This document shows, piece by piece, positions 8,426 through 31,835 of a stretch of DNA of 47,333 nucleotides (the stretch's first letter is position 1; every line of letters starts with the position of its first letter). The translations under genes and the position numbers were made by a program. Location of the stretch: contig JAILGP010000202.1 of NCBI GenBank assembly GCA_024696635.1, positions 1 to 47,333 on the forward strand. Reading direction: 5' to 3'. The notes beneath the pieces were generated by a model. It was not told the DNA's origin, ran no database searches, and worked only from the letters and a program-made list of their open reading frames with translations. The stretch comes from Eubacterium sp. (lineage in GTDB: Bacteria; Bacillota; Clostridia; Lachnospirales; Lachnospiraceae).

Positions 8426-9010
8426 TTAGTTATGATCCTCAATAATCTCTACCGCCACAGTCTTCTTCTTAAGACCTCTGTCCATGGCTTCTTTTATAAT
8501 ATATTTCTCTGCCTCTTCTTCATTCATACCTGATTGAATAAGAAGAAGCTTTGCCCTGTTAATAAGCTTAAGCTCAGTAAGCTTTTCTTCAGCCTTCTTA
8601 GCTCTCTTCTCAGCGTCCTTAAGCTTCTTCTGATTTGCCACAAGCATTCTGACTGCCTGATTCACAGCCGAAGCTTTAAGAGGCTTAGCCAGAACTATTA
8701 CGCCATAATCTATCAGCATTTCAGTAACATTTCCACTTATTTCAGCCGGAGTTATCATAAGAATTCCAGCATTTATCTTATCTTGAAGGCCCAATACAAA
8801 ATCAGTCCCCATCTCATCCATAAGAGGAGCATTGATTATAATAATATCATAATTCCTTTCAAGCACCTCTCTTTTAGCACCGGAAGCACTTTTACGTGTC
8901 TCAATCACATTAAAGAGGCCGGAAGGAAGAGCCTTTTTGGTAAGGATATTAAATTGTTCTGATGATGAAACCATCAGCAGGGAATATTGCATCCTAGAAT
9001 TTCCAGCCAT
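8426..9010 (-). CDS. ANTAR-domain antiterminator with a pseudo-receiver domain
   Basis: A 194-residue protein in two parts. Residues 8-125 have the fold pattern of a response-regulator receiver, but Asn60 occupies the phospho-acceptor Asp position (IIIINAPL), the N-terminal acidic pair is replaced by SSS (15-17), and only Thr87 and Lys109 of the switch residues remain. After a charged helix (127-148), residues about 136-190 form an ANTAR domain (NRAKLLLI, EEAEKYIIKEA, KKKTVAVEII), which binds RNA hexaloop hairpins and prevents termination. I chose the ATG at 9010 over an in-frame GTG four codons upstream. It is the last gene of pyrG-carA-carB-GS-like-ANTAR, whose leader carries one of five matching hexaloop/terminator elements, so it probably regulates itself and the whole island. 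Clostridial NitR/GlnR-type ANTAR proteins beside glnA are the closest described analogue. Confidence 0.9.
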   Translation of the reverse strand: MAGNSRMQYSLLMVSSSEQFNILTKKALPSGLFNVIETRKSASGAKREVLERNYDIIIINAPLMDEMGTDFVLGLQDKINAGILMITPAEISGNVTEMLIDYGVIVLAKPLKASAVNQAVRMLVANQKKLKDAEKRAKKAEEKLTELKLINRAKLLLIQSGMNEEEAEKYIIKEAMDRGLKKKTVAVEIIEDHN

Positions 9011-9094
9011 CTTACATCTCACTTCTTAAAACAGGACAATTCAAATCATTAAACAAAATAATTCAAATCATTAAACAAAACATACTAATCAAAT

Positions 9095-10267
9095 TTACAG
9101 AGAATACTTATCAATAATCTCCTGAGGGATTATGCTCTTTATAAATTCACTTTTCTGAGCCTTCTTAATTGCAGTTTTCTTATTCTCAGGAAGGAGGATT
9201 CCCTCATCGTCCATCTCCTTTGGAAGACTGAGACGATTCTCTATTCCATAAAGACCTGCATGAATAAGAAGAGCATATACAATATAAGGATTGCTGAGGG
9301 CATCAGGGGATCTAAGCTCCACCCTGGTTGATCCCTGATATTCGGAAATGTACATGAGCTCCGTATCGCCGGCACTGGACCACTTAACACGGTCAGGTGC
9401 TGTACTACGTCCAAATCTTGTATAAGACTCATCTGTTGGATTAAGGAAAAGAGTTATATCACAGATTTTATCTATAATACCTGCCGCCGCAAACTTTGCC
9501 ACATCCGCTCCCTCTGAATCCTTGGCGAAAAGATTGATATGATAACCATTTCCCGGCTTATCAGAAATAGGAACAGGAGAAAAATCTGCATAAAGACCAT
9601 TTCTATCTGCAATAGTACTTACAACCATTTTAAATGTAGTCATCTGGTCAGCAGCCTTAAGAGGCTTTCCATAATGGAAATCAATCTCATTCTGTCCAGG
9701 ACCTCTCTCATGGTGAGATCTCTCAGGAGTAAGTCCCATTTCCTCTATGGTAAGACAGATTTCACGACGTATATTTTCACCCCTGTCTAAAGGAGCTATA
9801 TCCATATAACCCGCCTCATCATAAGGAATCTTGGTAGGACGTCCCTCATCATCACATTTAAAAAGATAGAACTCCATCTCTGAACCAAAACGAAATTCGA
9901 TTCCAGCTTCCTCAGCCTTCTTTACTGCCTGCTTAAGAATATATCTGGTATCAGACTCAAATGGCTCACCATCAGCAGTGCAAACATCACAATACATCCT
10001 GATAACTCTTCCTGTATCAGGTCTCCATGGGAGAATTGATGTTGTTGCCGGATCCGGTCTAAGATATAGATTCTTATCACCAGAACATTCAAAACCAAGG
10101 ATAGCTCTGGCATTGATGGGGATTCCATATTTAAATGCCTTATGTATCTCACTTGGCATTACAGAAATATTTTTCTGAACTCCAAATGCATCGCGAAAAG
10201 CAAGCCTTATAAACTTGGCATCCTCTTCCTCTATATATTCCATTATTTCATCTTCTGTATAAAACAT
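9095..10267 (-). CDS. Divergent, short type I glutamine synthetase-like protein
   Basis: The 390-residue protein aligns along the GS-I fold but is about 50 residues shorter than ordinary enzymes (roughly 444). Metal-site residues are kept: the two Glu of SEMEFYLF, the Glu of SHHE, the Glu of GQNEID, the His of GNGYH and the Glu of RVELRSPD. Several substrate-site elements are not. The FDGSS loop that shapes the ammonium pocket reads NARAI, the NGSGMH motif has Pro in place of its Asn, and the NRS...RIP segment with phosphate-binding Arg residues reads AGDTELMYIS. It may be a low-activity GS, a gamma-glutamyl ligase for another amine, or a regulatory paralogue. It starts 16 bp after carB and precedes the ANTAR gene, suggesting a link to nitrogen sensing. 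The major GS of this locus is the type III enzyme. Confidence 0.8.
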   Translation of the reverse strand: MFYTEDEIMEYIEEEDAKFIRLAFRDAFGVQKNISVMPSEIHKAFKYGIPINARAILGFECSGDKNLYLRPDPATTSILPWRPDTGRVIRMYCDVCTADGEPFESDTRYILKQAVKKAEEAGIEFRFGSEMEFYLFKCDDEGRPTKIPYDEAGYMDIAPLDRGENIRREICLTIEEMGLTPERSHHERGPGQNEIDFHYGKPLKAADQMTTFKMVVSTIADRNGLYADFSPVPISDKPGNGYHINLFAKDSEGADVAKFAAAGIIDKICDITLFLNPTDESYTRFGRSTAPDRVKWSSAGDTELMYISEYQGSTRVELRSPDALSNPYIVYALLIHAGLYGIENRLSLPKEMDDEGILLPENKKTAIKKAQKSEFIKSIIPQEIIDKYSL

Positions 10268-10283
10268 ATTCTCTCCTTAATAC

Positions 10284-13200
10284 CTAGATAGTAGAAATTC
10301 TAGGGGTTATTGTCTCAAGTACATCCAACAATATTCTGACTGTATCAAGTGATGTAAATATAGTTACTCCGTTCATTATAGCACAGCGCCTTATCTCAGC
10401 ACCATCCTGATAATGAATTCCAGATAAAATGGCTCTTGTATTTATGATGTAGCTTACATAGCCTGCCTCTATAGAGCGAAGAACTTCATCACTTCCGTCG
10501 CTGAGCTTTCCTCTGATTCTTGTTCTGATTCCATGCTCCTTAAGAAATTCACCTGTACCAACTGTGGCTTCTATATTAAATCCAAGCTCATAAAATCTTC
10601 TTACAAGTGGAAGGGCCTCTTCTTTATCCTCATCTGCAAGGGTTACCATAACAGTACCATATTCCCTCATCTTTACACCACTTGCCTGAAGGGATTTGTA
10701 AAATGCAGTCTTAAGGCTTCTGTCATAACCAATAGCTTCACCCGTAGATTTCATTTCCGGTGACAGATATGGATCCATGCCATTAAGCTTTGCAAAGGAA
10801 AATGCAGGTGTCTTGACATACCATTTCTTCTCCTGACCATTCTTAAGTCCACCCTCAGCAGCTACTCCAAGGTAGCCCTGTTCCTTAAGGCTGTGACCAA
10901 GAATAACCTTAGTGGCAATATCAACCAGACTGTATCCTGTTGACTTTGAAAGGAATGGTACACTTCTGGAGGCACGTGGATTAACCTCGATTATATAAAC
11001 ATTATCATCCTTATCAACTATGAACTGTATATTGAAAAGACCAACTATTCCGATTCCAACTCCCAATTTCTCGGTATAATCAGCAATAGTTTCCTTAACC
11101 TTTTCAGAAATTGAGTAAGGAGGATAAACACTGGTACTGTCTCCTGAGTGAACACCAGTTCTCTCAACCAGTTCCATGATACCAGGAAGGAATACATCCT
11201 TTCCATCACAGATGGCATCTACCTCAACCTCTTTACCAACTATATATTTATCTACAAGAACAGGTCTGTCCTCATCCACCTCAACTGCTGTTTTAAGGTA
11301 ATGACGGAGCATTTCCTCATTAGCAACAATCTCCATGGCTCTTCCACCAAGAACAAAGCTTGGGCGGACAAGAACCGGATAACCAATTTGCTGGGCAGCC
11401 TTTACACCACTTTCAATATCTGTAACAGCCATACCCTTAGGATGAGGGATATTAAGGCTTTCGATTACATTTTCAAATGCATCTCTGTCCTCTGCCCTGA
11501 ATATGGCCTCGCAGGAGGTTCCAATAAGATTAACTCCCTGTTTCATAAGAGGCTCAGCCAGGTTTACTGCAGTCTGGCCACCAAGAGATGTGATAACGCC
11601 CTCCGGCTTCTCAAGGTCAACTATATTCATTATATCTTCTACTGTAAGAGGCTCAAAATAAAGCTTATCTGCAGTAGTATAATCAGTAGAAACTGTTTCA
11701 GGGTTATTATTTATAACGATTGCCTCGTAACCCATTTCATGAATAGTCTTTACGGCATGAACTGTGGAATAATCGAACTCCACACCCTGACCTATTCTGA
11801 TAGGACCTGAACCCAGAACTATTATCTTCTTCTTGTCTGATACTATGGACTCATTTTCATCCTCATAGGTCGAATAAAAATATGGAACATAGCTTTCAAA
11901 CTCACTGGCACAGGTATCGATCATCTTATAAACCGGCCTTATACCATAGCTTCTGCGAAGCTTTGCAATTTCATCCTCTGTAACATGAAGAAGCTCTGCA
12001 ATATAGGAATCTGAGAAGCCCATCTTCTTTGCTTCATAAAGAGTATCCCTGTCAAGATTTTGTTTTGCCTCTATCTTCTTCTCATATTCAACAATATTTC
12101 TGATCTTATCCAGGAAGAACATATCAATCTTAGTCCTGTTAAAGATAAGCTGAAGATCCACTCCCAGCCATATAAGCTGAGAAAGGGCATAGATACGGTC
12201 ATCCGTTCCATCCTCAACATATTTAAGAAGCTTTTCGATTGCTTCCTTTCTATTCTCAGGCTCTGGCTTATCAGAAAGGTTCTTTACATCAAACTTCTCA
12301 AGATGTATATGATTCTTTCCATCCTCAAGTGACCTTATGGCCTTAAGAAGACTTTCCTCCAGGGTACGTCCCACACTCATGGTTTCTCCAGTTGCCTTCA
12401 TCTGGGTAGATAATACATTTGAAGCAATAGTAAATTTATCAAATGGGAATCTAGGCATCTTGGTTACAACATAATCAAGTGTAGGCTCGAAGCAGGCAGG
12501 TGTGTTAGCCAGCTGAATCTCATCAAGTCTCATGCCCACTGCAATCTTGGCTGAAACCCTGGCAATAGGATAACCACTGGCCTTGGATGCAAGAGCAGAG
12601 GAACGGGAAACACGAGGATTAACTTCTATTACGTAGTATTTGAAAGACTCAGGATCAAGAGCAAACTGACAGTTACAGCCACCCTCTACACCAAGAGCTC
12701 TTATTATCTTAAGAGCAGAGTCACGAAGCATATGATATTCCTTATTTGTAAGAGTCTGGCTTGGAGCCACAACTATGGAATCTCCTGTATGTATACCAAC
12801 CGGGTCCAGGTTCTCCATGTTACAAACAACAAGGGCAGTATCATTGGCATCCCTCATTACTTCATATTCTATTTCCTTATAGCCCTTTATACTTTTCTCA
12901 ACCAGAACCTGATGTACTGGCGAAAGAGCTAAGGCATTCTTCATCATTTCTGCCATCTCCTCAGGGTCGTTGGCGAATCCACCACCGGTTCCTCCAAGGG
13001 TAAATGCAGGTCTTAATATAACAGGATAACCTATATCCTCTGCTGCCTTAAGACCTTCTTCCACAGAATAGGTAATCTCAGATGGAACTACTGGTTCACC
13101 CAGCTTCTCACAAAGCTCCTTAAAGGCTTCTCTATCCTCAGCACATCTGATACTGGAAGCCTTGGTACCTAAAAGCTCAATCTCGCATTCATCCAGAACA

Positions 13201-13517
13201 CCCTTATCACTAAGCTGCATGGCAAGATTAAGACCTGTCTGTCCACCGATTCCCGGAACAATAGCATCCGGTCTTTCATAGCGGCAGATTCTGGCCATGT
13301 ATTCCAGAGTCAGAGGCTCCATATAAACCTTGTCTGCAATCATTGTATCTGTCATTATAGTAGCAGGATTAGAATTAGCCAGAACAACCTCGTAGCCCTC
13401 TTCCTTAAGGGCAAGGCAGGCCTGGGTTCCTGCATAATCAAATTCGGCTGCCTGTCCGATAACAATAGGACCTGAACCGATAACCAATATCTTCTTTATA
13501 TCACTTCTCTTTGGCAT
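10284..13517 (-). CDS. carB: Carbamoyl-phosphate synthase large subunit
   Basis: At 1077 residues it has the normal CarB length, with two homologous ATP-grasp halves: the first begins [23 protein letters not shown] and the second [22 protein letters not shown] (about residue 558). Each carries the expected VEVNPR or IEVNPR metal-binding signature. The C-terminal MGS-like allosteric domain (about 940-1077) is present. It makes carbamoyl phosphate from bicarbonate, two ATP and ammonia channelled from the CarA subunit, feeding pyrimidines and arginine. It starts 23 bp after carA and ends 16 bp before the GS-like gene, consistent with one transcript. Confidence 0.97.
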
Positions 13518-13540: not shown

Positions 13541-14638
13541 TTAAATATTTTCAGTCCTGAACTTCTTCATCTCTTCTATAAATCTATCAAACAGATATGT
13601 ACTGTCCTGAGGTCCCGGTGCACTTTCAGGATGATATTGCACGGAAAATGTACCATCCTCCTCACAGCTTAAACCTTCAACTGTATTATCCAGAAGATTT
13701 ATATGAGAAATCTTAAGAGGTGTTCCCTTGATTGATTCCTCATCTACTGCATAGCTGTGATTCTGACTTGTTATCTCAATTCTTCCGGAGGCTAAATCCT
13801 TTACAGGATGATTTCCTCCCCTGTGACCAAACTTAAGCTTATAGGTCTTAGCTCCATAGGAAAGTGCTATAAGCTGATGACCAAGACAGATTCCAAACAT
13901 TGGATAAAGACCTCTAAGTGCCTTTAATGTATCTATAACCTGTGGAACATCCTCAGGATCTCCAGGTCCGTTTGAGATAAATATACCATCCGGCTTCATT
14001 TTCTGTATCTCCTCAGCAGGAGTATCATAAGGAACAACCGTTACATTACAGCCATGACTATTAAGCTCACGTACTATATTCATCTTCATTCCGCAATCTA
14101 TTGCAACCACATTGAACTTAGGATTTGAAGTACGTGCATACCATCTTTTTTTAGAGCTGCATCTCTTAACTGCATCTCTTCTAAGCTCTGTAGCCTTAAG
14201 CAGATTTATTCCTTCTGATGTAGGAGTTGAATAATCTGTAAGCAGAACCTTTCTGGAACCCATATCTCTTATGGATCTTACCAGCTTCCTTGTGTCTACT
14301 CCATATATTCCAGGTACATTTGACTCCTCTAAAAGCTCAGAAAGTGTTCTTGTAAAACGGAAATTAGAGGGAGACTCATTTACCTCCCTCACTATAAGAG
14401 CACCAAGATTTATCATCTTGCTTTCGAAATCTTCATCTGTAATTCCATAATTTCCAATAAGTGGATAAGACATAACTATGGCCTGATCTGTATAAGAGGG
14501 ATCAGAAATAATCTCCTGGTAGCCAGCCATGGAGGTGTTAAATACTATCTCACATATTGCATCATGATCTGCACCGAATCCAAAGCCAGGATATTCGGTA
14601 CCATCTTCAAATATTAGTTTCTTGGTATATTTCAGCAT
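13541..14638 (-). CDS. carA: Carbamoyl-phosphate synthase small (glutaminase) subunit
   Basis: A 365-residue CarA. The N-terminal CPSase small-chain domain ([15 protein letters not shown]) is followed by a class I glutamine amidotransferase domain with the nucleophile in GICLGHQ, the HRGGNHPV segment, and the His-Glu pair in QYHPES. It hydrolyses glutamine and passes ammonia to CarB. It lies 117 bp downstream of pyrG with no terminator between them. No PyrR or uracil-type attenuator is seen in front, so control is probably through the element upstream of pyrG. Confidence 0.97.
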
Positions 14639-14755: not shown

Positions 14756-16438
<1,683 letters not shown>

Positions 16439-16483: not shown

Positions 16484-16515
16484 AGGCACTTCGAGTATAT
16501 ATACCCGAAGCGCCT
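16484..16515 (-). terminator. Leader attenuator (terminator) upstream of pyrG
   Basis: The minus-strand RNA forms a stem from AGGCGCUUCGGGU and its complement ACUCGAAGUGCCU, with G-U pairs, around a short AU loop, then CUUUUUG. It lies 84 bp before the pyrG ATG and after the promoter, so it must be bypassed for expression. The 5' arm overlaps the hexaloop hairpin at 16507-16522. Confidence 0.85.
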
Positions 16516-16522
16516 TTGCTTC
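16507..16522 (-). promoter_or_regulatory. ANTAR-type hexaloop hairpin in the pyrG leader
   Basis: RNA GAAGC-AAAGGC-GCUUC: a 5-bp stem closing a hexaloop with A1 and G4. Its 3' arm is shared with the terminator, so the two cannot coexist. The stem differs from the gltB and gltD copies (GAAGC/GCUUC against AAAGC/GCUUU) but remains paired. Confidence 0.7.
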
Positions 16523-16562
16523 ATATCTCTATATTGTTTTTTTTATTTTATAAACTCTTATT

Positions 16563-16590
16563 AGTATATAACTTTATAAAAAAAAGTCAA
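16563..16590 (-). promoter_or_regulatory. Promoter of the pyrG operon
   Basis: TTGACT (16590-16585) and TATACT (16568-16563) are 16 bp apart. The same boxes, spacing and flanking AAAGTTATATACTAA occur before gltB. It begins only 22 bp after the gltB stop codon. Confidence 0.8.
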
Positions 16591-16612: not shown

Positions 16613-19600
16613 TTAGCCGACTAATTCTGTAAAGGCTTCGATCTGAGCCTGCTCGTGATTCATTCCCTGCTCCTCATACTGGGTAGTAAGATGAAGGATT
16701 TCCTTATAATCACTAGGTATGATTTTCTTGAATGCTTCAACATAATTATCAAAATCATCCAGAATCTTCTGTCCCTTGATGGAACCTGTATATTTCACAT
16801 GCTTTTCTATAAGCTTCTTAAGCTCTTCCTTATCGCTCTTATATTCCACCTTTTCCATAAGTACCAGCTGCTTATTGAGATTCTTGTAAAGTGTATTTTC
16901 TTCATCAAGTACATAAGCCACACCGCCGCTCATTCCTGCAGCAAAGTTCTTTCCGGTAGGTCCAAGGATTACAGCAAGGCCACCAGTCATGTATTCACAA
17001 CCATGCTCACCAACTCCTTCAACAACTGCCGTTGCACCAGAATTTCTTACACAGAATCTTTCGCCAGCCACACCTGCTATGTAAGCCTGGCCTGAAGTTG
17101 CACCGTATAAAGCAACATTTCCTATTATAATGTTCTCTTCAGCATTATAAGCCGCATTTTCAGGAGCATGTACTATAAGCTTTCCACCTGACATACCCTT
17201 ACCAAAATAGTCGTTGCTGTCTCCAGTAAGGTCAATAGTAAGTCCTGAAGGGATAAATGCACCAAAGCTCTGTCCTCCCGAACCCTTAGCATTGATAGTG
17301 ATTGAATCCTCTTCAAGTCCATCTGGATATGCTCTCGTGATTTCAGCTCCAAGGAGTGTTCCAAAGGTTCTGTCTATATTTGTAATATTTATATCAATAG
17401 ACTGTTTATCAATATTTTTATCAGGTGACTTCTTTCCTTCTAGTCCAAGAAGCTGTCTTATGCCCTTGTTCTTAAGAAGTATCTGCTCATCCTTTGTATC
17501 CTCAAGCTTGAAATTATAGGCAAGCTCCTTATGGAAAGTCTGCTTATTTCTATCAACTGATGACATATCAAGAAGGACTTTTTCAAGTGAAAGTCTCTGC
17601 TCTGACTTAGAAAGGTCTTCCTTTACCTTAAGTAGATCAGTTCTTCCCACCAGCTCATCTATACTTCTTACGCCAAGCTTTGCCATATATTCCCTAAGCT
17701 GTCTTGCGACAAAATACATGAAATTCTCAACATATTCAGGCTTGCCCTGGAATCTCTTACGAAGCTCCGGATTCTGTGTAGCAACACCCATTGGACAGGT
17801 ATCATGCTGACATACCCTCATCATTACACAGCCCATGGTTACAAGTGGAGCTGTTGCAAATCCATATTCCTCTGCACCAAGTATAGCAGCTATTACTACA
17901 TCACGTCCGCTCATGAGTTTTCCATCAGTTTCGATTATAACCTGATTTCTAAGACCATTTGCCACAAGGGTCTGATGTGTTTCAGCAAGTCCAAGCTCCC
18001 ATGGAAGTCCTGCATTATGAATTGAGCTAAGTGGAGCCGCTCCAGTTCCTCCATCATAACCTGACACAAGTATAACCTGTGCTCCTGCCTTTGCAACACC
18101 GGCTGCTACAGTACCTACACCAGATTCAGAAACCAGCTTAACTGAGATTCTTGCCTGCTTGTTGGCACATTTAAGATCATATATAAGCTGAGCTAAATCT
18201 TCGATTGAATATATATCATGATGTGGTGGTGGAGATATAAGACTTACTCCAGGTGTTGAATGTCTTGTCTTGGCAATCCATGGATAAACCTTTTTTCCAG
18301 GAAGATGTCCACCTTCACCAGGCTTAGCACCCTGAGCCATCTTTATCTGAAGCTCTCTTGCACTTACAAGATACTTACTTGTTACACCAAATCGTCCGCT
18401 GGCTACCTGCTTTATTGCTGAGCTTCTATCATTCTTAGTTCCGGCTGATGCGATTCTCTCATCACTTTCACCACCCTCACCACTATTAGACTTACCATGA
18501 ATATGATTCATAGCTATAGCCAGTGTCTGGTGAGCTTCCTCTGATATAGAACCGTAGGACATGGCACCTGTCTTGAATCTCATCATGATTGATTCTTCAC
18601 TTTCAACCTCATCGAGGCTGACTCCCTTATCAGGATACTTAAAATCAATCATACTTCTAAGATAACCAGTCTGCTCTGCATCTACCATCTTAGTATATTC
18701 TATAAACTTTTCATAATTGCCTTCCCTTGTTGAAAGCTGAAGCATATGAATTGTTTTAGGATTATATCTATGATTCTCACCCTGACTTCTAAGCTTATGT
18801 CTTCCAAGTGCTGAAAGCTCAAGATTAACAGGAAGTCCTAACGGGTCAAATGCCTTGCTGTGCTGTGCATCAACGGCCTCAGCTATATCCTCAAGAGTGA
18901 TTCCCTCTATACGGCTTACAGTTCCCTCAAAATAATCATCTATAACTTCACTTGATATACCAATTGCTTCAAATATCTTGCTGCCCTGGTAGGACTGGAT
19001 TGTGGATATACCCATCTTAGAAGCAATCTTTACTATACCACTTAGAATAGCCTCATCATAATCCTCAACCGCTGCATAGTAGTCCTTGTCAAGAAGTCCA
19101 TCTTCTATAAGCTCTCCTATTGTAGCATGTGCAAGATAAGGATTTACTGCAGATGCACCATAGCCAAGAAGAGTAGCAAAATGATGTACCTCACGAGGCT
19201 CACCAGACTCAAGTATAAGAGACATGGCAGTATTCTTTTTTGTATCTACAAGGTGCTTATGAACAGCAGCTACAGCCAGTAACGAAGGAAGTGCCACATG
19301 GTTTTCATCTACTCCCCTGTCTGTAAGAATAAGTATATTAGCACCCTGACGATAAGCACGGTCAACCTCAACAAAGAGATGACTTATAACATGCTTCATA
19401 GGTGTACTCTTATAAAAAAGTGTTGAAACCTTAGCAACCTTAAAGCCCTTCTTATCGAGTCTTTCTATCTTAAGTATATCCAGATCAGTAAGGATAGGAT
19501 TATGAATCTTAAGTACTTGACAGTTCTCATAGCTTTCCTTAAGAAGATTTCCATTTTTACCAACATATACGCTTCTTGAAGTAACTATCTTTTCTCTTTC

Positions 19601-21322: not shown

Positions 21323-21370
21323 CTTATTTTCTCCTCTCCATGATTTTACTTATGTGGGAAAAAAACAAAA

Positions 21371-21400
21371 AGGCACTTCGAGTTATTACTCAAAGCGCCT
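21371..21400 (-). terminator. Leader attenuator (terminator) upstream of gltB
   Basis: A fully paired 13-bp stem (AGGCGCUUUGAGU with ACUCGAAGUGCCU, including G-U pairs) closes an AAUA tetraloop and is followed by UUUUUGUUUUU. It lies 48 bp before the gltB ATG and downstream of the promoter. The 5' arm overlaps the hexaloop hairpin. Confidence 0.88.
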
Positions 21401-21407
21401 TTGCTTT
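21392..21407 (-). promoter_or_regulatory. ANTAR-type hexaloop hairpin in the gltB leader
   Basis: RNA AAAGC-AAAGGC-GCUUU, a 5-bp stem with a hexaloop carrying A1 and G4. The GCUUU arm belongs also to the terminator stem. Just upstream, UAAA/UUUA could close an ACGGA loop as a weak first hairpin; this is uncertain. Confidence 0.7.
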
Positions 21408-21437: not shown

Positions 21438-21465
21438 AGTATATAACTTTATTTTTAAAAGTCAA
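21438..21465 (-). promoter_or_regulatory. gltB promoter
   Basis: TTGACT (21465-21460), 16 bp, TATACT (21443-21438). The initiation point should lie about 35 nt before the terminator stem. Confidence 0.8.
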
Positions 21466-23795: not shown

Positions 23796-25202
23796 TTATT
23801 TTACAGGATATTCATTGTTGAAACATGCGGTGCAAAGAGGAAGATCACCAACCATGGTTTTAAAATCCTCTATAGCCAGGTACTGAAGGGAATCTGCTCC
23901 TACGCTTTTACATACCTCCTCACTGGAATGCTGAGAAGCTATAAGCTGCTTTGCAGTAGGTACATCTGTTCCATAATAGCAGGGATATAAAAATGGAGGT
24001 GAACTTATCCTTACATGAACAGCCTTTGCTCCGGCCGCCTTCAGCATCTCAATAAGCTGCTTCATGGTAGTTCCACGTACAATAGAATCATCTATTATAA
24101 TGATACTTTTATCCTTTACAACACTTTTAAGAACGCTAAGCTTCATATGTACTGCAGTCTGACGTTCCTTGTCGGTAGGCTTTATAAAGCTTCTTCCTAT
24201 ATAACTGTTTTTATGAAATGCATGGGCAAAGGGAATTCCTGACTCCAAGGCATAGCCTTCCGCCGCAGCTATACCTGACTCAGGTACACCCACGACTATA
24301 TCAGCCTTAACATCTGACTTTCTTGCCAGAGCTCTTCCTGCATTTACCCTTGCCTCATGAATCTCAATTCCGTCCATAACAGAATCATTTCTGGCAAAAT
24401 AAATATATTCAAATATACAGTGGGCCCTTTTCTTCTGGCATAAGGTCCTATCAGAGCTTACTCCATCTCTGGTAACAGATATAACCTCACCTGGTTCTAT
24501 ATCCCTTACCACCTGACCTCCTACAGCATCAATTGCAGCACTTTCTGAGGCCAGTATATAGGTATCTTCCTCTCCAGTACTGCCCTTCTTCTTCCCAAGA
24601 ATAAGAGGCTTAATACCAAAAGGATCCCTTACTCCAACCATTTTCCTCGGGCTCATAATGACCACAGCATAACCGCCCTTAAGCTTTGATGCGGACTTCT
24701 TTATTGCTTCTTCAATAGTCTGACTATTTACTCTTTCACCTATTATCTCATAGGCAAGAACCTCCGTATCAGAGGTTGTATAATGGGCAAGTCCCTTAAA
24801 CATCTGCTCATACTTTAGATCCAGGGCATTTACTATATTTCCATTATGTACCAGGGCCAGTATTCCCTTTATATAATTCATGGCTATAGGCTGGGCATTC
24901 TCAACCCTGCTCCCTCCAGTTGTGGAATAGCGCACATGACCTACTCCTATGTTGCCCTTCATATTCTGCAGGGCTTCCTCATGAAAAACCTCACTTACAA
25001 GGCCCATATCCTTTTTTATGGAAAGATTACCCATGGGGCCAAATGTATCTGAAACCGCTATTCCTGCCGCTTCCTGTCCCCTATGTTGAAGAGCTGTCAG
25101 TCCATAATAAATATCCTGAGCTACAGCTTCTCCTGATAAAGAATATATTCCGAAAACTCCACATTCCTCATGTATCTTGTCATCTGCCATGACGCTATTC
25201 AT
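23796..25202 (-). CDS. purF: Amidophosphoribosyltransferase (glutamine PRPP amidotransferase)
   Basis: A 468-residue PurF of the Bacillus type. A short propeptide precedes Cys14 (HEECGVFGI), the N-terminal glutaminase nucleophile. The PRTase domain has the PRPP loop IIIIDDSIVRGTTM. Iron-sulfur-type cysteines appear in RAHCIFEY, FLYPCYYG and the C-terminal PLCTACF. It catalyses the first committed step of purine synthesis. AGGAGG lies 9 bp before the ATG. It is placed between gltD and trpE, away from any other pur gene, which suggests grouping by glutamine use rather than by pathway. Confidence 0.96.
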   Translation of the reverse strand: MNSVMADDKIHEECGVFGIYSLSGEAVAQDIYYGLTALQHRGQEAAGIAVSDTFGPMGNLSIKKDMGLVSEVFHEEALQNMKGNIGVGHVRYSTTGGSRVENAQPIAMNYIKGILALVHNGNIVNALDLKYEQMFKGLAHYTTSDTEVLAYEIIGERVNSQTIEEAIKKSASKLKGGYAVVIMSPRKMVGVRDPFGIKPLILGKKKGSTGEEDTYILASESAAIDAVGGQVVRDIEPGEVISVTRDGVSSDRTLCQKKRAHCIFEYIYFARNDSVMDGIEIHEARVNAGRALARKSDVKADIVVGVPESGIAAAEGYALESGIPFAHAFHKNSYIGRSFIKPTDKERQTAVHMKLSVLKSVVKDKSIIIIDDSIVRGTTMKQLIEMLKAAGAKAVHVRISSPPFLYPCYYGTDVPTAKQLIASQHSSEEVCKSVGADSLQYLAIEDFKTMVGDLPLCTACFNNEYPVK

Positions 25203-25281: not shown

Positions 25282-26877
25282 CTATCCTTCATACATAAGA
25301 TAGTGGTCTACCTCCATGGCAGCCTTTCTACCTTCTGCAATCGCCCATACCACAAGTGACTGTCCTCTATGCATATCACCGGCTACGAAAACTCCTGGCT
25401 TTGATGTAGCAAAATGTCCCATATCAGTCTTAACATTGGTCCTGCCATCCACAGCTACTCCAAAGCCCTCTGTTACATAGCTTTCACTTCCTAAAAAGCC
25501 TGCTGCAATAAGAACCAGCTGTGCAGGGATTTCTCTTTGGCTTCCCTCAACCTGAACCATATTCATACGACCTGTTTTTTCATCCTTCTCAGCCTTAAGA
25601 TCTACTATTACAACTGACTTAAGAATACTTTCCTTATCCTTTTTCTCACTTATAAATTCCTTTACTGTTGTCTGATATACTCTAGGATCATTTCCAAATT
25701 TATAAATAGCCTCTTCCTGACCATAATCAGTCTTAAGAGTACGAGGCCACTCAGGCCATGGGTTAGTGCTAAGTCTTTCAGCTGGAGGACAAGGCATCAT
25801 CTCAAGCTGGGTAACTGATTTAGCACCAAGTCTTATACAAGAACCAAGGCAGTCATTTCCAGTATCACCACCACCTATTACCACAACATCCTTTCCCTTA
25901 ACCATGTCAGTAATATCGGATGATACAAGGCTTACAGGCTTTTCATCTGCAATATTTTTATCTATATCATTTTTTGATCCTACATTTTTCTTATCATAAT
26001 TATCCAGAAGACTCTTTGTTACTCTTCCAAGAAAATCTACTGCAAAGTAAATCCCCTTAGCCTCTCTTCCAGGAGCCTTTATATCTCTAGGATTGGAAGC
26101 TCCACATGCAAGTACTACAGCATCATACTCTGCCTCTAATTCTGCCGCACTTATATACTTGGTCTTTTCTGTAACATTTGTATTATATTTTTTACTTCCG
26201 CATACATTTACATTTGTCACAAAGCTTATACCGGCTTCTTCCATCATATGAACACGTCTATCAATAATGGCCTTGTCCAGCTTCATATTAGGGATACCAT
26301 ATCTGAGAAGTCCGCCTATTCTGTCATTTCTCTCATATACAGTCACGCTATGTCCACGTCTGTTAAGGAACTGTGCCACAGCAAGACCTGAAGGACCACT
26401 TCCAACAACCGCAACCTTTTTACCAGTTCTGGTTTTAGGAGCCTTTTCTGAAACAAGCCCCTTTGCAAATGCATTTTCAACGATCAGCTTTTCATTCTCC
26501 TTAGTGGCAACAGGCTGGTCATGAAGCCCGCAGGTACAGGCATTTTCACATAGAGCAGGACATACTCTTGATGTGAATTCAGGAAAACTATGTGTCATAC
26601 TTAGTCTCTTATAAGCCAGCTCAAGATTTCCCTTGTATACCAGATCATTAAATTCTGGAACCAGATTGTTAAGGGGACAACCTGATGCCATTCCAGCTAT
26701 CATGGCTCCTGCCTGACAAAATGGCAAACCGCAGTCCATACATCTTGCAGCCTGAAGCTTCTGCTCTTCTACAGTCAGCTGTGAGTGGAATTCATTAAAA
26801 TTAAAAATTCTCATTTCCTCACTGATAACAGGTCCTGTAACTCTTTCATACTCTAAGAAGCCTGTAGTCTTTCCCAT
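25282..26877 (-). CDS. gltD: Glutamate synthase small subunit
   Basis: A 531-residue GltD, slightly longer than the usual 480-500. The N-terminal 4Fe-4S cysteines are CMDCGLPFC, ASGCPL and CPALCENACTCG. An FAD Rossmann motif (VVGSGPSGLAVAQFLNRRG) and an NADPH motif (VVIGGGDTGNDCLG) follow. It passes electrons from NAD(P)H to the FMN of GltB. It is first in gltD-purF-trpE-trpG and has its own promoter and attenuator. Extra length sits between the two nucleotide-binding motifs (a Lys/Asp-rich insertion near residues 290-325). Confidence 0.94.
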   Translation of the reverse strand: MGKTTGFLEYERVTGPVISEEMRIFNFNEFHSQLTVEEQKLQAARCMDCGLPFCQAGAMIAGMASGCPLNNLVPEFNDLVYKGNLELAYKRLSMTHSFPEFTSRVCPALCENACTCGLHDQPVATKENEKLIVENAFAKGLVSEKAPKTRTGKKVAVVGSGPSGLAVAQFLNRRGHSVTVYERNDRIGGLLRYGIPNMKLDKAIIDRRVHMMEEAGISFVTNVNVCGSKKYNTNVTEKTKYISAAELEAEYDAVVLACGASNPRDIKAPGREAKGIYFAVDFLGRVTKSLLDNYDKKNVGSKNDIDKNIADEKPVSLVSSDITDMVKGKDVVVIGGGDTGNDCLGSCIRLGAKSVTQLEMMPCPPAERLSTNPWPEWPRTLKTDYGQEEAIYKFGNDPRVYQTTVKEFISEKKDKESILKSVVIVDLKAEKDEKTGRMNMVQVEGSQREIPAQLVLIAAGFLGSESYVTEGFGVAVDGRTNVKTDMGHFATSKPGVFVAGDMHRGQSLVVWAIAEGRKAAMEVDHYLMYEG

Positions 26878-26925: not shown

Positions 26926-26937
26926 AAAAAAACAAAA

Positions 26938-26967
26938 AGGCACTTCGAGTATATACTCAAAGCGCCT
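26938..26967 (-). terminator. Leader attenuator (terminator) upstream of gltD
   Basis: AGGCGCUUUGAGU pairs with ACUCGAAGUGCCU around an AUAU loop and is followed by UUUUUGUUUUUUU. Apart from the loop it is the same as the gltB attenuator. It lies 60 bp before the gltD ATG. Confidence 0.88.
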
Positions 26968-26974
26968 TTGCTTT
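26959..26974 (-). promoter_or_regulatory. ANTAR-type hexaloop hairpin in the gltD leader
   Basis: RNA AAAGC-AAAGGC-GCUUU, identical to the gltB copy, with A1 and G4 in the hexaloop; its 3' arm is shared with the terminator. Upstream, AAAAUU/AAUUUU could form another stem, but with an 11-base loop. Confidence 0.7.
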
Positions 26975-27010
26975 AAAATTCATATATTGTTAATTTTGAA
27001 AACTGATTTT

Positions 27011-27038
27011 AGTATAATACTTAATTTTCAAAAGTCAA
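27011..27038 (-). promoter_or_regulatory. Promoter of gltD-purF-trpE-trpG
   Basis: TTGACT (27038-27033), 16 bp, TATACT (27016-27011), the same boxes and spacing as before gltB and pyrG. Confidence 0.8.
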
Positions 27039-27072
27039 GAAGAAAAATTATTTATTTAATTAGATACATAAC

Positions 27073-27154: not shown

Positions 27155-28951
27155 CTATTCAACATCCTGAAGAGCATCAAAGTTTTCTTCTCCTGTTCTG
27201 ATCTTAACTACACGGCTAACTGGATATACAAAGATCTTACCATCTCCGATTTTTCCAGTATAAAGTGTTTTCTTAGCTGTCTCTATAACACTATCTACAG
27301 GAATTTTACTTACTACTACTTCCAGCTTAATTTTAGGCAGAAGTGTAACGTCCATCTCAACTCCACGGTACATCTCACCGGCACCCTTCTGGATACCACA
27401 ACCACTTACCTGAGTAACTGTAATACCAGTTACACCAAGGTTATTAAGTGCCTTCTTAATCTTATCGTAACGTGAAAGCTTTGTAATAATAACGACTTTA
27501 TTAATACCAGTATCTGTTATAATTCCTGAATTTGCCATATCTGCAGCAGCATTTACAACTGGTACAGAAGCTGCCTTCTGGGCATCAGAGGCCTTATCAT
27601 AATCTGAATTACCTACGCTTGTATTTTCAAATTCAGATCTTCCAAGACTGGTATTTTCATTTGCACTCATGGCTGCATTACTCATATCCATAATAGCAAA
27701 GCCTGAATATGCTGATGCAAGACCATGCTCTGTAGAATCAAGACCTTCAAGTTCTTCTTCTTCAGATACTCTAAGTCCAAAGATTGCTTTAATAATACTA
27801 AATACTACTATCATTGTTATTACTGTCCAGCCTGCTACTGCCGCAAATCCAAGTAACTGAAGTCCTAACTGATGGAAACCACCGCCGTAGAAAAGACCTA
27901 CTACAGAATCATTTCCAGGTGCAGATGTTGTTGCAAAAAGTCCTGTTGCAATTGTTCCCCAGATACCATTCATCATATGAACTGCTACTGCACCAACAGG
28001 GTCATCTATATGAAGCTTGAAATCAAGAAGCCATACACCAAATACTACTAAAAGTCCAGATACAGCACCGATTATGATTGCGCCAAATGCATCTGTTACA
28101 TCACATGGAGCTGTAATTGCTACAAGACCTGCCAGCGAAGCATTAAGACACATAGAAACATCAGTCTTACCATATTTAACCCATGTAAATATCATACATA
28201 CAACAGTTGCAACTGAAGGAGCGATTGTTGTTGTTACAAATACAGATGCAAGCTGATCTACTGATGTACAAGCTGCACCATTAAAACCATACCATCCAAG
28301 CCAGAGAATAAATACACCAAGGGCACCGATTACTATATTATGTCCTGGAAATGCATTTACCTTAGTTACTTTACCATTTTCATCCTTTTCGAATTTACCA
28401 ATACGAGGGCCAACCATCTTAGCACCAACGATTGCAGCTATACCACCAACCATGTGAATTGCACATGAGCCTGCAAAATCATGGAAGCCAAGCTGTGCAA
28501 GCCAGCCACCGCCCCAGATCCAGTGTGCTTCTACTGGATATATAAGAGCCGAAATAACTCCTGAATATACACAGTAGCTGAGGAATTTTGTTCTCTCTGC
28601 CATAGCACCTGATACTATAGTAGCTGTTGTAGCACAGAATACCAGGTTAAAAATAAAGTTAGACCAGTCAAAGTTTTCATAACTTGTAAATATATCAAAT
28701 CCAGGTTTTCCAATAAATCCCATCAGATCCTCTCCTAAGAGAAGGCTGAAACCTATAAGTATAAATACACAGCAGCCTATACAGAAATCCATAAGGTTCT
28801 TCATAAGTATATTACCAGCATTTTTGGCTCTGGCAAAACCAGCCTCAACCATTGCAAATCCTGCCTGCATCCAGAATACAAGAGCTGCACCAATCAGGAA
28901 CCATACTCCAAATAGTTCTCCGTCTAAAGCTTGCATAATCTCATCTGTCAT
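27155..28951 (-). CDS. amtB: Ammonium channel AmtB fused to a C-terminal PII (GlnB/GlnK) domain
   Basis: 598 residues. Residues 1-395 are an 11-helix Amt channel: GFAMVEAGFARAKN motif, twin pore histidines His166 (CAIHMVGG) and His325 (AVHMMNG). A linker (396-480) with a duplicated ENTSLGRSE/ENTSVGNSD unit leads to a complete PII domain (483-598) with T-loop QKGAGEMYRGVE, B-loop TGKIGDGKI and C-loop KIRTGEE. PII normally binds 2-oxoglutarate and ATP/ADP and plugs the Amt pore; here the plug is tethered. The Tyr of the T-loop that is uridylylated in proteobacteria (GAEY) is Met here, so uridylylation control is unlikely. It lies downstream of the type III GS, with a hexaloop/terminator element and a second structured RNA in front. 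Confidence 0.95.
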   Translation of the reverse strand: MTDEIMQALDGELFGVWFLIGAALVFWMQAGFAMVEAGFARAKNAGNILMKNLMDFCIGCCVFILIGFSLLLGEDLMGFIGKPGFDIFTSYENFDWSNFIFNLVFCATTATIVSGAMAERTKFLSYCVYSGVISALIYPVEAHWIWGGGWLAQLGFHDFAGSCAIHMVGGIAAIVGAKMVGPRIGKFEKDENGKVTKVNAFPGHNIVIGALGVFILWLGWYGFNGAACTSVDQLASVFVTTTIAPSVATVVCMIFTWVKYGKTDVSMCLNASLAGLVAITAPCDVTDAFGAIIIGAVSGLLVVFGVWLLDFKLHIDDPVGAVAVHMMNGIWGTIATGLFATTSAPGNDSVVGLFYGGGFHQLGLQLLGFAAVAGWTVITMIVVFSIIKAIFGLRVSEEEELEGLDSTEHGLASAYSGFAIMDMSNAAMSANENTSLGRSEFENTSVGNSDYDKASDAQKAASVPVVNAAADMANSGIITDTGINKVVIITKLSRYDKIKKALNNLGVTGITVTQVSGCGIQKGAGEMYRGVEMDVTLLPKIKLEVVVSKIPVDSVIETAKKTLYTGKIGDGKIFVYPVSRVVKIRTGEENFDALQDVE

Positions 28952-29066: not shown

Positions 29067-29081
29067 TTTCATCAATATAAA

Positions 29082-29120
29082 AGAGCGCCCCAGGAATGAT
29101 TTCCAAACCCAAGACGCCCT
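29082..29120 (-). terminator. Leader attenuator (terminator) upstream of amtB
   Basis: AGGGCGUCUUGGG pairs with CCUGGGGCGCUCU (13 bp with several G-U), loop of 13 nt, then only four U residues. It is weaker than the other four. It sits in the gap between the type III GS gene and amtB, where no good TTGACA-type promoter is seen, so it may meter readthrough from the GS gene. Confidence 0.65.
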
Positions 29121-29125
29121 TGTCT
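29112..29125 (-). promoter_or_regulatory. ANTAR-type hexaloop hairpin in the amtB leader
   Basis: RNA AGAC-AAGGGC-GUCU: a 4-bp stem and a hexaloop differing from the others only at position 3, which leaves A1 and G4 in place. The GUCU arm is part of the terminator. Confidence 0.6.
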
Positions 29126-29171
29126 ACATTAATAATTTATTTAATTTATTCTAAAATATATAATATCTTTA

Positions 29172-31280
29172 TTATTTAACACTGAAGAGAAGCTGACCAT
29201 AGCTAGGGAATGGCCAATCCTTCTGTGAAGTAAGCATTTCTGCTTCATCAACATATTTACGAAGCTCATTCATAGATGGAAGCATCTTATCTCTTACATA
29301 AGCTGAAGATTCAAAGATATCATCCAGTCCCTTAAAGGTAGCAAGTACATTCTCAAGCTCTGATACTGCTTCAAGAATACTATCTGTTAGCTCAGAAAGT
29401 CTCTCCATAGTTGATACTTCATAGTTACATTTAACCTTAGAGCTAACCTGCTTCATAAGAGATGTAGTCTCTGCAAGTCTGTAGAGGTATCTCTCCATTG
29501 CAGGAAGATAGTTCTTACGTACCATATCAACCATGGTATTTCCTTCGATGTTTACAGTCTTTACATAATTCTCAAGCATGATTTCACATCTTGACTGAAG
29601 CTCAGTTTCTGTAAATACCTTATGCTCAGTAAGCATCTTAACATTCTTCTCATCAAGAAGATGTGGCATAGCATCTGCAGTTGTCTTAAGATTTGAAAGA
29701 CCTCTTACTTCAGTTGCTTCCTTTACCCAATCATCTGTATAACCATTTCCATCAAAGAGAATTCTCTGGTGATCTGTAATAACTCTCTTAATAAGAGCAT
29801 GAAGATCATTTTCAAAATCAGTAGACTTCTCAAGTTCATCAGCATACTGCTTAAGACTTTCGGCAACAGCTGCATTTAACATCATATTACAGCATGCAAT
29901 ACTATTAGCTGAACCAAGAGATCTGAACTCGAACTTGTTACCTGTAAATGCAAATGGTGATGTTCTATTTCTGTCTGTTGTATCACGGCTGAAGTTTGGA
30001 AGTGAATGAACACCAAGCTTCATAACAACATCCTTAGTTCCCTCATAAGGAACATCATCTCTTATAGCATTGAGAATTGCTGTAAGCTCATCTCCAAGGA
30101 ATACAGAAATGATTGCTGGAGGTGCTTCATTTGCTCCAAGTCTGTGATCATTTCCTGCTGTAGCAACAGAAAGACGAAGAAGATCCTGATAATCATCAAC
30201 AGCCTGAATTACTGCTGCAAGGAAAAGAAGGAACTGGGCATTTTCATAAGGTGTCTTACCTGGTGACAGAAGATTTACACCAGTATCTGTTCCAAGTGAC
30301 CAGTTGTTGTGCTTACCTGATCCGTTAACACCTGCAAATGGCTTCTCATGAAGTAAACATACCATACCATGACGGGATGCAACCTTCTTCATAATCTCCA
30401 TAGTAAGCTGATTTGCATCTGTAGCAACATTTGTTGTTGAATAAATAGGTGCAAGCTCATGCTGTGCTGGAGCAACCTCATTATGCTCTGTCTTGGCAAG
30501 TATTCCCAGCTTCCAAAGCTCATTATTAAGGTCTTCCATAAATTCATTTACTCGAGGCTTGATAACTCCGAAGTAATGATCATCCATTTCCTGTCCTCTT
30601 GGAGGCATTGCTCCAAAAAGAGTTCTTCCTGTATAAATAAGGTCTGGACGCTTATTGAATACTTCCTGATCTACTAAGAAATATTCCTGCTCAGGTCCAA
30701 CACTTGTTCTTACATACTTGACATCTTCATTTCCGAAGAGTTTAAGAATACGCTTCGCCTGACAGTTGATTGCCTGCATGGATCTAAGAAGTGGTGTTTT
30801 CTTATCCAGTGCCTCACCTGAGTAGGAGCAAAATGCTGTAGGAATACAAAGTGTGTGATCCTTGATAAATGCATATGATGTAGGATCCCATGCTGTATAT
30901 CCTCTTGCTTCAAATGTTGCTCTAAGTCCTCCTGATGGGAAGGATGATGCATCAGGCTCGCCCTTAATAAGTTCCTTACCCGAAAACTCCATCAGTACTC
31001 CACCATCTGGTGAAGGAGATATGAAGCTGTCATGCTTCTCTGCTGTAACACCGGTAAGTGGCTGGAACCAATGAGTAAAATGTGTAGCTCCATTTTCAAG
31101 AGCCCAATTTTTCATTTCCTCTGCTACTGCATCGGCTACTCTATCATCAAGTCTTACGTTCTCATCTATTGTTTTCTTAAGAGATGCATAAATGTCATCT
31201 GAGAGTCTTGCTCTCATGACCTTATCATTAAACACAAGTGAACCAAAAAGCTCTGGTACATTTACATTTGTTTTTTCCAT
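29172..31280 (-). CDS. glnA: Glutamine synthetase, type III
   Basis: The 702-residue protein is of GSIII (GlnN) type: [65 protein letters not shown] and [14 protein letters not shown]. The reaction is glutamate plus ammonia plus ATP to glutamine; GSIII enzymes are dodecamers common in anaerobes. I placed the start at 31280 (MEKTNVN), 7 bp after AAAGGAGA, rather than at a start 11 codons upstream. It is the first gene of the island, with the best promoter of the set and a 300-nt leader holding the hexaloop/terminator. With the ammonium channel behind it, it forms the uptake and assimilation end of the island. Confidence 0.96.
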
Positions 31281-31442
31281 TAGTTTAATCTCCTTTCCAA
31301 TTCTTAAGACCACCAGTCAATCAGATTTAAGGAAGTTAACCCCTGCATCACATTTCATCACCCGGGTAAAGGATATAGACATAGCACCTTTTTTTAAATG
31401 TTTTTAAGGTTATTTTTCTCTTAACTGACTTCCTCAGTCTTT

Positions 31443-31497: not shown

Positions 31498-31524
31498 ATA
31501 AAAAATGTTTTAAAAAAACAAAAA

Positions 31525-31557
31525 AGGCGCCTCAGAGATTCATTCTCTAAGACGCCT
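31525..31557 (-). terminator. Leader attenuator (terminator) upstream of type III glnA
   Basis: AGGCGUCUUAGAG pairs with CUCUGAGGCGCCU along 13 bp around an AAUGAAU loop, then UUUUUUGUUUUUUU. It lies about 245 nt before the ATG and only about 25 nt after the promoter. Confidence 0.88.
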
Positions 31558-31564
31558 TTGTCTT
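31549..31564 (-). promoter_or_regulatory. ANTAR-type hexaloop hairpin in the glnA leader
   Basis: RNA AAGAC-AAAGGC-GUCUU: a 5-bp stem with different base pairs from the gltB copy but the same hexaloop. The GUCUU arm is shared with the terminator. The transcript has room for only a few nucleotides upstream, so a separate first hairpin seems impossible here. Confidence 0.7.
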
Positions 31565-31576
31565 CTATGGTTCCCC

Positions 31577-31604
31577 ATTATACACTACTGATTTTATTTG
31601 TCAA
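31577..31604 (-). promoter_or_regulatory. Promoter of type III glnA
   Basis: TTGACA (31604-31599) and TATAAT (31582-31577), both perfect consensus, 16 bp apart. Upstream, 31606-31835 is AT-rich with an AACAATAAGAAA direct repeat and a small TGCTT/AAGCA hairpin; I see no gene or clear terminator there. Confidence 0.85.
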
Positions 31605-31835
31605 TAAAATTTTAAATTTTTTTTGAATTTTTTGGAAAATGAATTTTAAAGTGATTTATGGTCACATAGTATACTTTTACTACTAATATTATTTTCTTAT
31701 TGTTTTTCTTATTGTTTGTAGATTAGTCTATTTATTGTATTCTGCTTATTATAAGAAGCATATTGTAACAGGGAATGTTTTTTAGTTTTAATATTTTATA
31801 GAGCGTGTTAAAAACTAATAATTTATTAAAAAAAT

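Follow-up and report, generated by a model that had tools for sequence, protein, structure and literature searches.

The window analysed here comprises 47,333 nucleotides (nt) of a contig from Eubacterium sp. of the Lachnospiraceae (GenBank JAILGP010000202.1, positions 1 to 47,333, assembly GCA_024696635.1). Its minus strand carries, in this order, glnA3 (type III glutamine synthetase), an ammonium transporter fused to a P-II domain (amtB/P-II), gltD, purF, trpE, trpG, gltB, pyrG, carA, carB, a further glutamine synthetase (GS) homologue (glnA-like) and the gene of an ANTAR protein (Table 1; all coordinates are those of the window). Five of these genes are preceded by RNA leaders in which a hexaloop hairpin overlaps a terminator. 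We describe the leaders, their distribution in relatives and the two proteins encoded at the end of the cluster, which probably act together as a glutamine-responsive antitermination system.

Hexaloop-terminator leaders in the cluster

Hairpins with an AA(A/G)GGC hexaloop on stems of 4-8 pairs precede glnA3, amtB, gltD, gltB and pyrG. All five lie where the preliminary description of this DNA had placed them. In each leader, the loop and the 3' arm of the hexaloop hairpin begin a strong terminator. Folding energies are -22.1 to -26.5 kcal/mol for complete leaders and -2.3 to -5.8 kcal/mol for the hexaloop hairpin alone, and the terminator folds stand well apart from shuffled sequences (z = -4.5 to -6.7). 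Left to itself, the terminator wins energetically, and therefore some factor must favour the hexaloop for transcription to continue.

Sigma-70-type promoter-like elements are located directly upstream of four of the five leaders (glnA3, gltD, gltB and pyrG). The element of glnA3 ends 12 nt before the hexaloop stem, which, if this promoter is used, leaves no space for a second hairpin. The amtB leader, for which a promoter of its own was not seen, is found 38 nt past the glnA3 stop codon. The promoter and terminator scan as a whole returned no excess over shuffles (62 promoter-like elements against 55.6, 13 terminator-like elements against 10.6). Support for the promoters thus comes from their placement across species.

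Searches with Rfam of the window, and more laxly of positions 28940-31620, gave no family above its cut-off. Behind the amtB terminator, the 5' region at 28985-29078 (minus strand) forms a strong branched fold (z = -3.6), likewise without an Rfam match above cut-off. The idea that another regulatory RNA follows the terminators was rejected, as the corresponding glnA3 stretch reaches only z = -0.9 and these 5' regions, second amtB hexaloops apart, vary between species.

Two alternative stems covary

The leader alignment (A3) comprises 135 rows, including one mirror-image row on the plus strand (L094). It was fitted to the terminator and not to the hexaloop, which makes the hexaloop count less biased. 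In the hexaloop stem 98.5% of cells are paired, and two-sided changes occur at four of the five pairs. None of 500 shuffles came as high in cells paired or in covariation, while 12 of 500 did so in the number of pairs with two-sided changes. The terminator stem is paired in 97.3% of cells, with double changes at 8 of 13 positions. The middle strand, common to both, covaries with either stem, and two mutually exclusive covarying stems are the pattern expected of an antiterminator/terminator pair. In the loop, A1 is present in 134 of 134 letters and G4 in 135 of 135 rows, closed by an essentially invariant C-G pair. A1 and G4 in a hexaloop have been published as the signature of ANTAR targets (PMC3369931).

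The leaders recur before glutamine genes

Of 156 model matches, 11 mirror-image or partial ones were removed. Among the remaining 145, all except L073, L151, L152, L153 and L155 contain the hexaloop, giving 140 leaders, 137 from the genus and three from the wider order. Four of the 137 are weaker matches beyond the list of the first model search. A match was present in 35 of the 37 genus genomes, and after the hexaloop check the 137 leaders are spread over 34 genomes. The two genus genomes without a match are G012, which has no ANTAR match either, and G032, which has a weak ANTAR match only.

Glutamine or ammonium genes (glnA3, amtB, gltB/D, pyrG, carA, purF, glmS, glnA-like) follow 122 of the 137 genus leaders. 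Counted as genomes with at least one leader, the first genes are gltB in 27, amtB in 25, glnA3 in 21, pyrG in 16, carA in 10, purF in 9, gltD in 5, a PPDK_N-domain protein in 5 and CP_ATPgrasp in 3; rarer ones are glmS, RelA/SpoT-domain and glnA-like (2 each), dapL and PucR (1 each) and unassigned genes (3). These family names derive from scans of one or two examples per label (for the rarer labels, one of five PPDK_N, one of two glmS and two of three CP_ATPgrasp proteins), the other proteins being matched by their N-terminal sequence; at one locus labelled CP_ATPgrasp (L133), an open reading frame (ORF) of 157 aa comes first behind the leader. Outside the genus, the same leader type precedes glnA3, gltB, amtB, asnB, asnA, P-II and other genes.

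The preliminary description had proposed that the regulon reaches into CTP, carbamoyl-phosphate, purine and anthranilate synthesis. The first three branches were borne out independently, the carbamoyl-phosphate and purine branches because carA and purF have leaders of their own in other species. Tryptophan is the weakest part of that proposal: no leader of trpE was seen among the 137 of the genus, and in the window it is separated from purF by 235 nt.

Outside the genus, hexaloop-terminators lead asnB (L193, L196, L217) and asnA (L205, L207, L213). In two genus genomes, the gene behind an ANTAR-type leader encodes a RelA/SpoT-domain protein (L096:593-1621, L070:570-1688), through which glutamine might be connected to (p)ppGpp-type signals. 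Proteins with a PPDK_N domain (about 860 aa; L088, L118, L131, L139, L149, L226) and circularly permuted ATP-grasp proteins (L097, L100, L133, L211, L236, L300) recur behind leaders within and beyond the genus.

Leaders elsewhere in the genome

A first covariance model (R1), built from 12 seeds, namely the five window leaders and seven from relatives, was run with strict filters on the 3.15-Mb genome. It recovered the five leaders at 50-73 bits, as it must by construction, and no other site at E<=0.01. The second model (R2), built from the 135 rows and run with laxer filters up to E<=1, again ranked the five highest and added weaker matches. One of these is a sixth leader, outside the window (L308, G000:C79:17506-17618); it consists of tandem hexaloop-terminators (E 0.22 and 0.025) and is followed by a CP_ATPgrasp gene, a leader target in relatives as well. 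Two more matches, on C135 (E=0.002) and C147 (E=0.07), are without the stem of the hexaloop hairpin and resemble ordinary terminators. In total, the genome has at least six leaders, five of them strong. A loose pattern of loop plus T-run gave 351 overlapping matches over the genome and was abandoned as too unspecific in favour of the covariance model.

The ANTAR protein and its co-occurrence with the leaders

The whole genome contains one ANTAR gene, and it lies inside the regulated cluster. Its product matches PF03861 at 41.5 bits (cut-off 27.3) and is laid out as a receiver-like domain, a coiled coil and an ANTAR domain with helical fold; its predicted structure (pLDDT 92.7) is similar to EutV in the RNA-bound form (TMq 0.75). 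The receiver carries Asn64 at the phospho-acceptor position and Ser-Ser-Ser in place of the acidic pair, and in every aligned homologue except L253 the acceptor residue is Asn, Ser, Cys or His. A protein partner, rather than phosphorylation, therefore probably sets the activity of the ANTAR protein. Equivalences with EutV, which is itself outside the alignment, were counted from the conserved Met. The positions of EutV E160 and M172, described as needed for RNA binding (PMC8934654), are kept in every aligned homologue, and that of N173 is D or N.

Leader and ANTAR gene occur together. In the order sample of 245 genomes, leaders were found in 63 (E<=1e-3) and an ANTAR match in 199; all 63 are within the 199, and none of the 46 ANTAR-less genomes has a leader (Fisher p=3e-7). 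The class sample of 293 genomes, which overlaps in part with that of the order, contains 38 leader-bearing genomes (E<=1e-4) and 156 with an ANTAR match; 35 of the 38 are among the latter (p=5e-8). As the genomes are related, both p-values are too small. The expectation that such leaders accompany an ANTAR gene thus holds throughout the order sample and for most of the class sample. The related claim that one ANTAR protein serves all five units, including its own operon, gains from the single gene, from the same leaders before the same genes genus-wide and from the co-occurrence, and loses by five exceptional genomes. Because the ANTAR gene lies behind pyrG-carAB-glnA-like under the pyrG leader, its autoregulation through that leader is plausible.

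A degenerate glutamine synthetase beside the ANTAR gene

The glnA-like gene directly precedes the ANTAR gene at 31 of 31 fetched loci (29 from the genus and two distant). A single contig search with the ANTAR protein gave only two loci, both distant. Among the matches listed in both searches, the two genes are adjacent in 103 of 111 order genomes and not adjacent in eight. The glnA-like model has the GS fold (TMq 0.91-0.95 among the matches listed). Its residues, in B. subtilis numbering, were compared with Paenibacillus GS (7tdp).

At the positions of D53, E304, R316 and R321 of an active GS-I, all 30 genus sequences and the four nearest others carry changes. In GS, E304 serves in proton abstraction, and R316 and R321 bind and polarise ATP, as reported (PMC6478659). 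E134, E189, E196, H245, N247, R298 and R335 are kept in all 30 genus sequences, so that the metal and glutamate ligands E134, E189, E196, H245 and R298 of an active GS-I are present; E132 is kept in 21 and E333 in 29 of the 30. For the order, residues were read in the best 30 of 192 matching genomes, our own included, and in the two distant loci. In an uneven sample of 27 other GS sequences (25 of the best order loci and the two distant ones), all retain D53 and R321 and 23 retain R316, but 20 have Lys or Arg in place of E304. To judge by these residues, glnA-like seems to have lost its enzyme function step by step while the gene stayed beside ANTAR. It is the best candidate for an ANTAR partner that reads glutamine. 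No paper on a GS pseudoenzyme combined with ANTAR came up in searches of the open-access literature.

A proposed model for glutamine-dependent antitermination

We consider it probable that a pseudo-GS and the ANTAR protein form a glutamine regulon that acts on single-hexaloop attenuators. This proposal draws on the leader anatomy, covariation, distribution, residue losses and adjacency described above; from these we infer binding, antitermination, sensing and the direction of the response. By default, the intrinsic terminator would form and transcription would halt soon after its start. Free ANTAR protein would bind the AA(N)GGC hexaloop and keep its hairpin closed, removing the 5' arm of the terminator, and a single hexaloop close behind the promoter would suffice. 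The polymerase could then read through into glnA3, amtB, gltD-purF, gltB and pyrG-carAB-glnA-like-ANTAR, and the position of the ANTAR gene in the pyrG unit would create a positive loop. With no phospho-acceptor in the receiver, ANTAR activity would be set by protein contact. The glnA-like protein, which appears to have kept most metal- and glutamate-binding residues and lost those for ATP and ammonium chemistry, may read glutamine and hold or release ANTAR. Low glutamine would then lead to a joint rise of ammonium uptake, GS, glutamate synthase (GOGAT) and the glutamine-spending enzymes.

A bolder form of the model is tentative, and we place it somewhat below an even chance. Here, the dead GS would be kept only as a sensor, having descended stepwise from an active GS beside ANTAR, and single-hexaloop attenuators at the transcript start would govern the whole glutamine economy, from uptake, GS and GOGAT to the amidotransferases pyrG, carA, purF, glmS and, in other genera, asnB.

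A different role for glnA-like deserves attention. With the same ANTAR protein and leaders, it could be an altered enzyme such as a gamma-glutamyl ligase, and the signal could come from elsewhere, for instance from the P-II domain of amtB, which is encoded in the same cluster. The complete retention of E134, E189, E196, H245, R298 and R335 in the genus would fit an enzyme, and GS relatives with changed E304 or D53 can be other ligases (PMC6478659). However, R316 and R321, lost in all 34 genus and nearest sequences, are kept in a known ligase described in the same source, the metal ligand E132 is lost in 9 of 30, and the adjacency to ANTAR is fixed over the order. We therefore regard a ligase as unlikely.

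One hexaloop or two

Published ANTAR target RNAs of Firmicutes are described as dual hairpins (PMC3369931, PMC8164766), separated by a linker of 2-25 nt (PMC8164766). The leaders studied here have the A1/G4 hexaloop and the overlap with a terminator, and lack two hairpins with a short linker. With one defining feature missing under the dual-hairpin definition, their sequence features would make them RNAs that work like ANTAR targets. According to the 2022 work, the minimal ANTAR binding site is one hexaloop, and the natural reach of single hexaloops is posed there as a question (PMC8934654); by that minimal definition the leaders would be members if binding were shown.

In the 45 nt before the 140 leaders, upstream A..G.. 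hairpins show no excess over mononucleotide shuffles (3-bp stems, 20 seen and about 19 expected; 4-bp stems, 3 seen and about 7.5 expected). A further 63 leaders from the order, the loop-bearing ones among 65 fetched from about 100 rows listed, gave 6 such hairpins where 6.5 are expected. The distance to the promoter points the same way. A promoter-like pair was found in 22 of 22 glnA3 leaders, with 10-12 nt from the end of the -10 box to the stem in 20 of them, and in 21 of 31 amtB leaders, 17 of these at 11-13 nt; 41 of the 52 promoters found for order leaders lie <=15 nt from the stem. It is the tight spacing that carries weight here, and by it the hexaloop seems to stand at the very start of the transcripts. 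Less decisive for the single-hexaloop form are the leaders of gltB, gltD and pyrG, with 13-47 nt between -10 box and stem.

Additional hexaloops occur downstream. They are present in 12 of 31 amtB leaders (0.2 expected), among them L066, L080, L084, L119 and L160, and at least five amtB loci contain a complete second hexaloop-terminator 61-87 nt further on, beyond the 2-25 nt linker. This suggests that the tandem amtB and C79 units are serial attenuators rather than the dual motif.

The system could nonetheless be a standard dual-hexaloop one, with a weak or non-canonical upstream hairpin (P1), a receiver driven by a kinase or another partner, and glnA-like as a mere neighbour. This would follow the published rule for Firmicutes, the 13-47 nt of the gltB, gltD and pyrG leaders provide room for a small P1, and the window pyrG leader can form, by eye, a 3-bp A..G.. 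hairpin there. Yet upstream hairpins are no commoner than in shuffles in either set of leaders, the -10 box stands some 10-13 nt from the stem in glnA3 and in 17 of 31 amtB leaders, and the receiver Asp is absent. On balance, a standard dual-hexaloop system appears improbable. That something other than ANTAR reads the attenuators (a small-molecule sensing RNA, a different RNA-binding protein or coupled translation), with ANTAR only co-occurring, is very improbable: it would accommodate the three class and two incomplete genus genomes with leaders and no detected ANTAR, as well as the extra structure in the amtB 5' region (28985-29078, z=-3.6), but the A1/G4 hexaloop is the published ANTAR signature, the co-occurrence (63 of 63 and 35 of 38) and the position of the sole ANTAR gene within the regulated cluster speak against it, an aptamer-sized RNA does not fit between the glnA3 promoter and terminator, and no Rfam family reached its cut-off.

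Several observations weigh against the model of a pseudo-GS and ANTAR acting on single hexaloops. Antitermination has been held to need both hexaloops (PMC3369931, PMC8934654), and the C79 unit does have two, 56 nt apart. The loop adenines also make the A-tract of the terminator, and their conservation is therefore not specific to ANTAR. At the position of EutV Tyr164, which stacks on G4, the homologues mostly have His, and the window protein Glu. The R2 model yields false positives, with a match lacking the hexaloop stem in our own genome at E=0.002. In the class, G317, G321 and G520 have a leader without an ANTAR match; those of G317 and G520 are clear glnA3 leaders, that of G321 a hexaloop-terminator before an unassigned gene. 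In the genus, G021 and G022, which are 72-73% complete, also have leaders without an ANTAR match, and such exceptions may be assembly gaps. Conversely, with strict filters and E<=1e-3, 136 of the 199 ANTAR-bearing order genomes gave no leader; either there are leaders of other kinds that ANTAR serves as well, or many leaders escape the model. Finally, most catalytic residues are present in the remaining GS sequences of the comparison, so the pseudoenzyme is specific to a lineage.

Relation to known systems

The leaders look like a simpler and wider form of known ANTAR control. EutV of the Enterococcus faecalis eut system acts on A1/G4 hexaloops that overlap an intrinsic terminator (PMC3369931, PMC8934654), the arrangement of the leaders here; the ANTAR protein shares its receiver, coiled coil and ANTAR domain and matches it in fold. 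In contrast, there are two hexaloops in that system and one here, the targets here are glutamine genes, the receiver has no phospho-Asp, and His or Glu takes the place of the Tyr that stacks on G4. NitR of Clostridium saccharobutylicum induces GS and GOGAT by ANTAR antitermination on nitrogen limitation (Stutz 2007, as cited in PMC6316151). Here, however, the set extends to pyrG, carA, purF and glmS (asnA and asnB in other genera), the GS behind a leader is of type III, and the linked GS-I has lost catalytic residues in the genus.

For the proposed sensor, NasS-NasT and AmiC-AmiR offer a precedent, in which a second protein, the one that binds the ligand, keeps hold of the ANTAR protein until the signal frees it (PMC3795266). 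The sensors of these pairs resemble the small-molecule-binding proteins of transport systems, whereas the candidate here is a GS homologue. Feedback-inhibited GS, in turn, serves as the glutamine sensor for GlnR, a nitrogen regulator encoded beside it, and chaperones this protein (PMC9249791). GlnR is a DNA-binding repressor and its GS a full enzyme; in our case the regulator is a predicted RNA binder and the GS looks inactive.

The preliminary description saw the breadth of the regulon, across pyrimidine, purine and tryptophan entry enzymes, as new. It did not remark on the single-hexaloop design, the GS homologue with its lost residues, the receiver lacking Asp or the sixth leader. Nitrogen ANTAR regulons with ammonium transporters, P-II and glutamate and glutamine synthases were already known (PMC3369931), and ANTAR control of ammonium transport, GS and GOGAT had been published (PMC3369931, PMC6316151); the tryptophan branch is not supported. 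Open-access literature searches did not find the single-hexaloop promoter-proximal form, the genus-wide amidotransferase reach or a degenerate GS beside ANTAR, although several of them gave largely unrelated papers and are thus weak evidence of absence.

The single-hexaloop leaders provide a large natural set for testing the need for both hexaloops, and in this group of anaerobes the proposed regulon ties the supply of glutamine to the synthesis of nucleotides, amino sugars and asparagine. If the sensor proposed here is real, a GS pseudoenzyme would be an example of an enzyme family turned regulator of its former pathway.

Features of the window and minor observations

Table 1. Genes, leaders and promoter-like elements of the glutamine cluster
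Feature	Position	Strand	Details	Basis
ANTAR protein	8426..9022	-	198 aa	PF03861 match, model, receiver residues
glnA-like	9095..10267	-	GS-I homologue, 390 aa, directly 5' of ANTAR gene	Pfam/NCBIfam, PDB alignment, residue tables, fold
carB	10284..13517	-	carbamoyl-phosphate synthase large chain	family match
carA	13541..14638	-	carbamoyl-phosphate synthase small chain (glutaminase)	family match
pyrG	14756..16399	-	CTP synthase	family match
pyrG leader	16484..16523	-	TGAAGC-AAAGGC-GCTTCG, loop starts at 16517, overlaps terminator 16515-16484	hairpin scan, folding
pyrG promoter-like	16563..16590	-	TTGACT-16-TATACT	promoter scan
gltB	16613..21322	-	glutamate synthase large subunit	family match
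gltB leader	21369..21407	-	AAAGC-AAAGGC-GCTTT, loop starts at 21402, overlaps terminator 21402-21369	hairpin scan, folding
gltB promoter-like	21438..21465	-	TTGACT-16-TATACT	promoter scan
trpG	21520..22107	-	trpG-type glutamine amidotransferase, downstream in gltD group	family match
trpE	22091..23560	-	anthranilate synthase I, without own leader	family match; start read from sequence
purF	23796..25202	-	second gene behind gltD leader	family match
gltD	25282..26877	-	glutamate synthase small subunit	family match
gltD leader	26936..26977	-	TTTAAAGC-AAAGGC-GCTTTGAG, loop starts at 26969, overlaps terminator 26969-26936	hairpin scan, folding
gltD promoter-like	27011..27038	-	TTGACT-16-TATACT	promoter scan
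amtB	27155..28951	-	ammonium transporter fused to C-terminal P-II domain	family match
amtB leader	29067..29133	-	AGAC-AAGGGC-GTCT, loop starts at 29121, overlapping terminator; own promoter not seen	hairpin scan, folding
glnA3	29172..31280	-	type III glutamine synthetase	Pfam GSIII_N; start codon from sequence
glnA3 leader	31523..31564	-	AAGAC-AAAGGC-GTCTT, loop starts at 31559, overlaps terminator 31559-31523	hairpin scan, folding
glnA3 promoter-like	31577..31604	-	TTGACA-16-TATAAT (12/12)	promoter scan

Two start codons were revised by reading of the sequence. The type III GS starts at ATG 31280 instead of GTG 31313 of the ORF list, and trpE most likely at ATG 23560 instead of TTG 23710. The 235 nt between purF and trpE are filled in part by a 12-bp tandem repeat, CTTATTACTATA (23619-23707, 7.4 copies, 94% matches), which is possibly a length-variable element upstream of trpE.

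Besides glnA-like, the genome has two type III GS-like genes. A further GS-domain gene at G000:C39:14255-14746, outside the window, belongs to a 703-codon frame of GSIII size and has no leader match. Within the window, a 14-bp repeat (7.7 copies, 32868-32975) lies immediately upstream of a dprA-like gene at 31836-32834. An 817-aa protein without a Pfam match is encoded at 5722-8175, with a 54-bp repeat near its N-terminal end.

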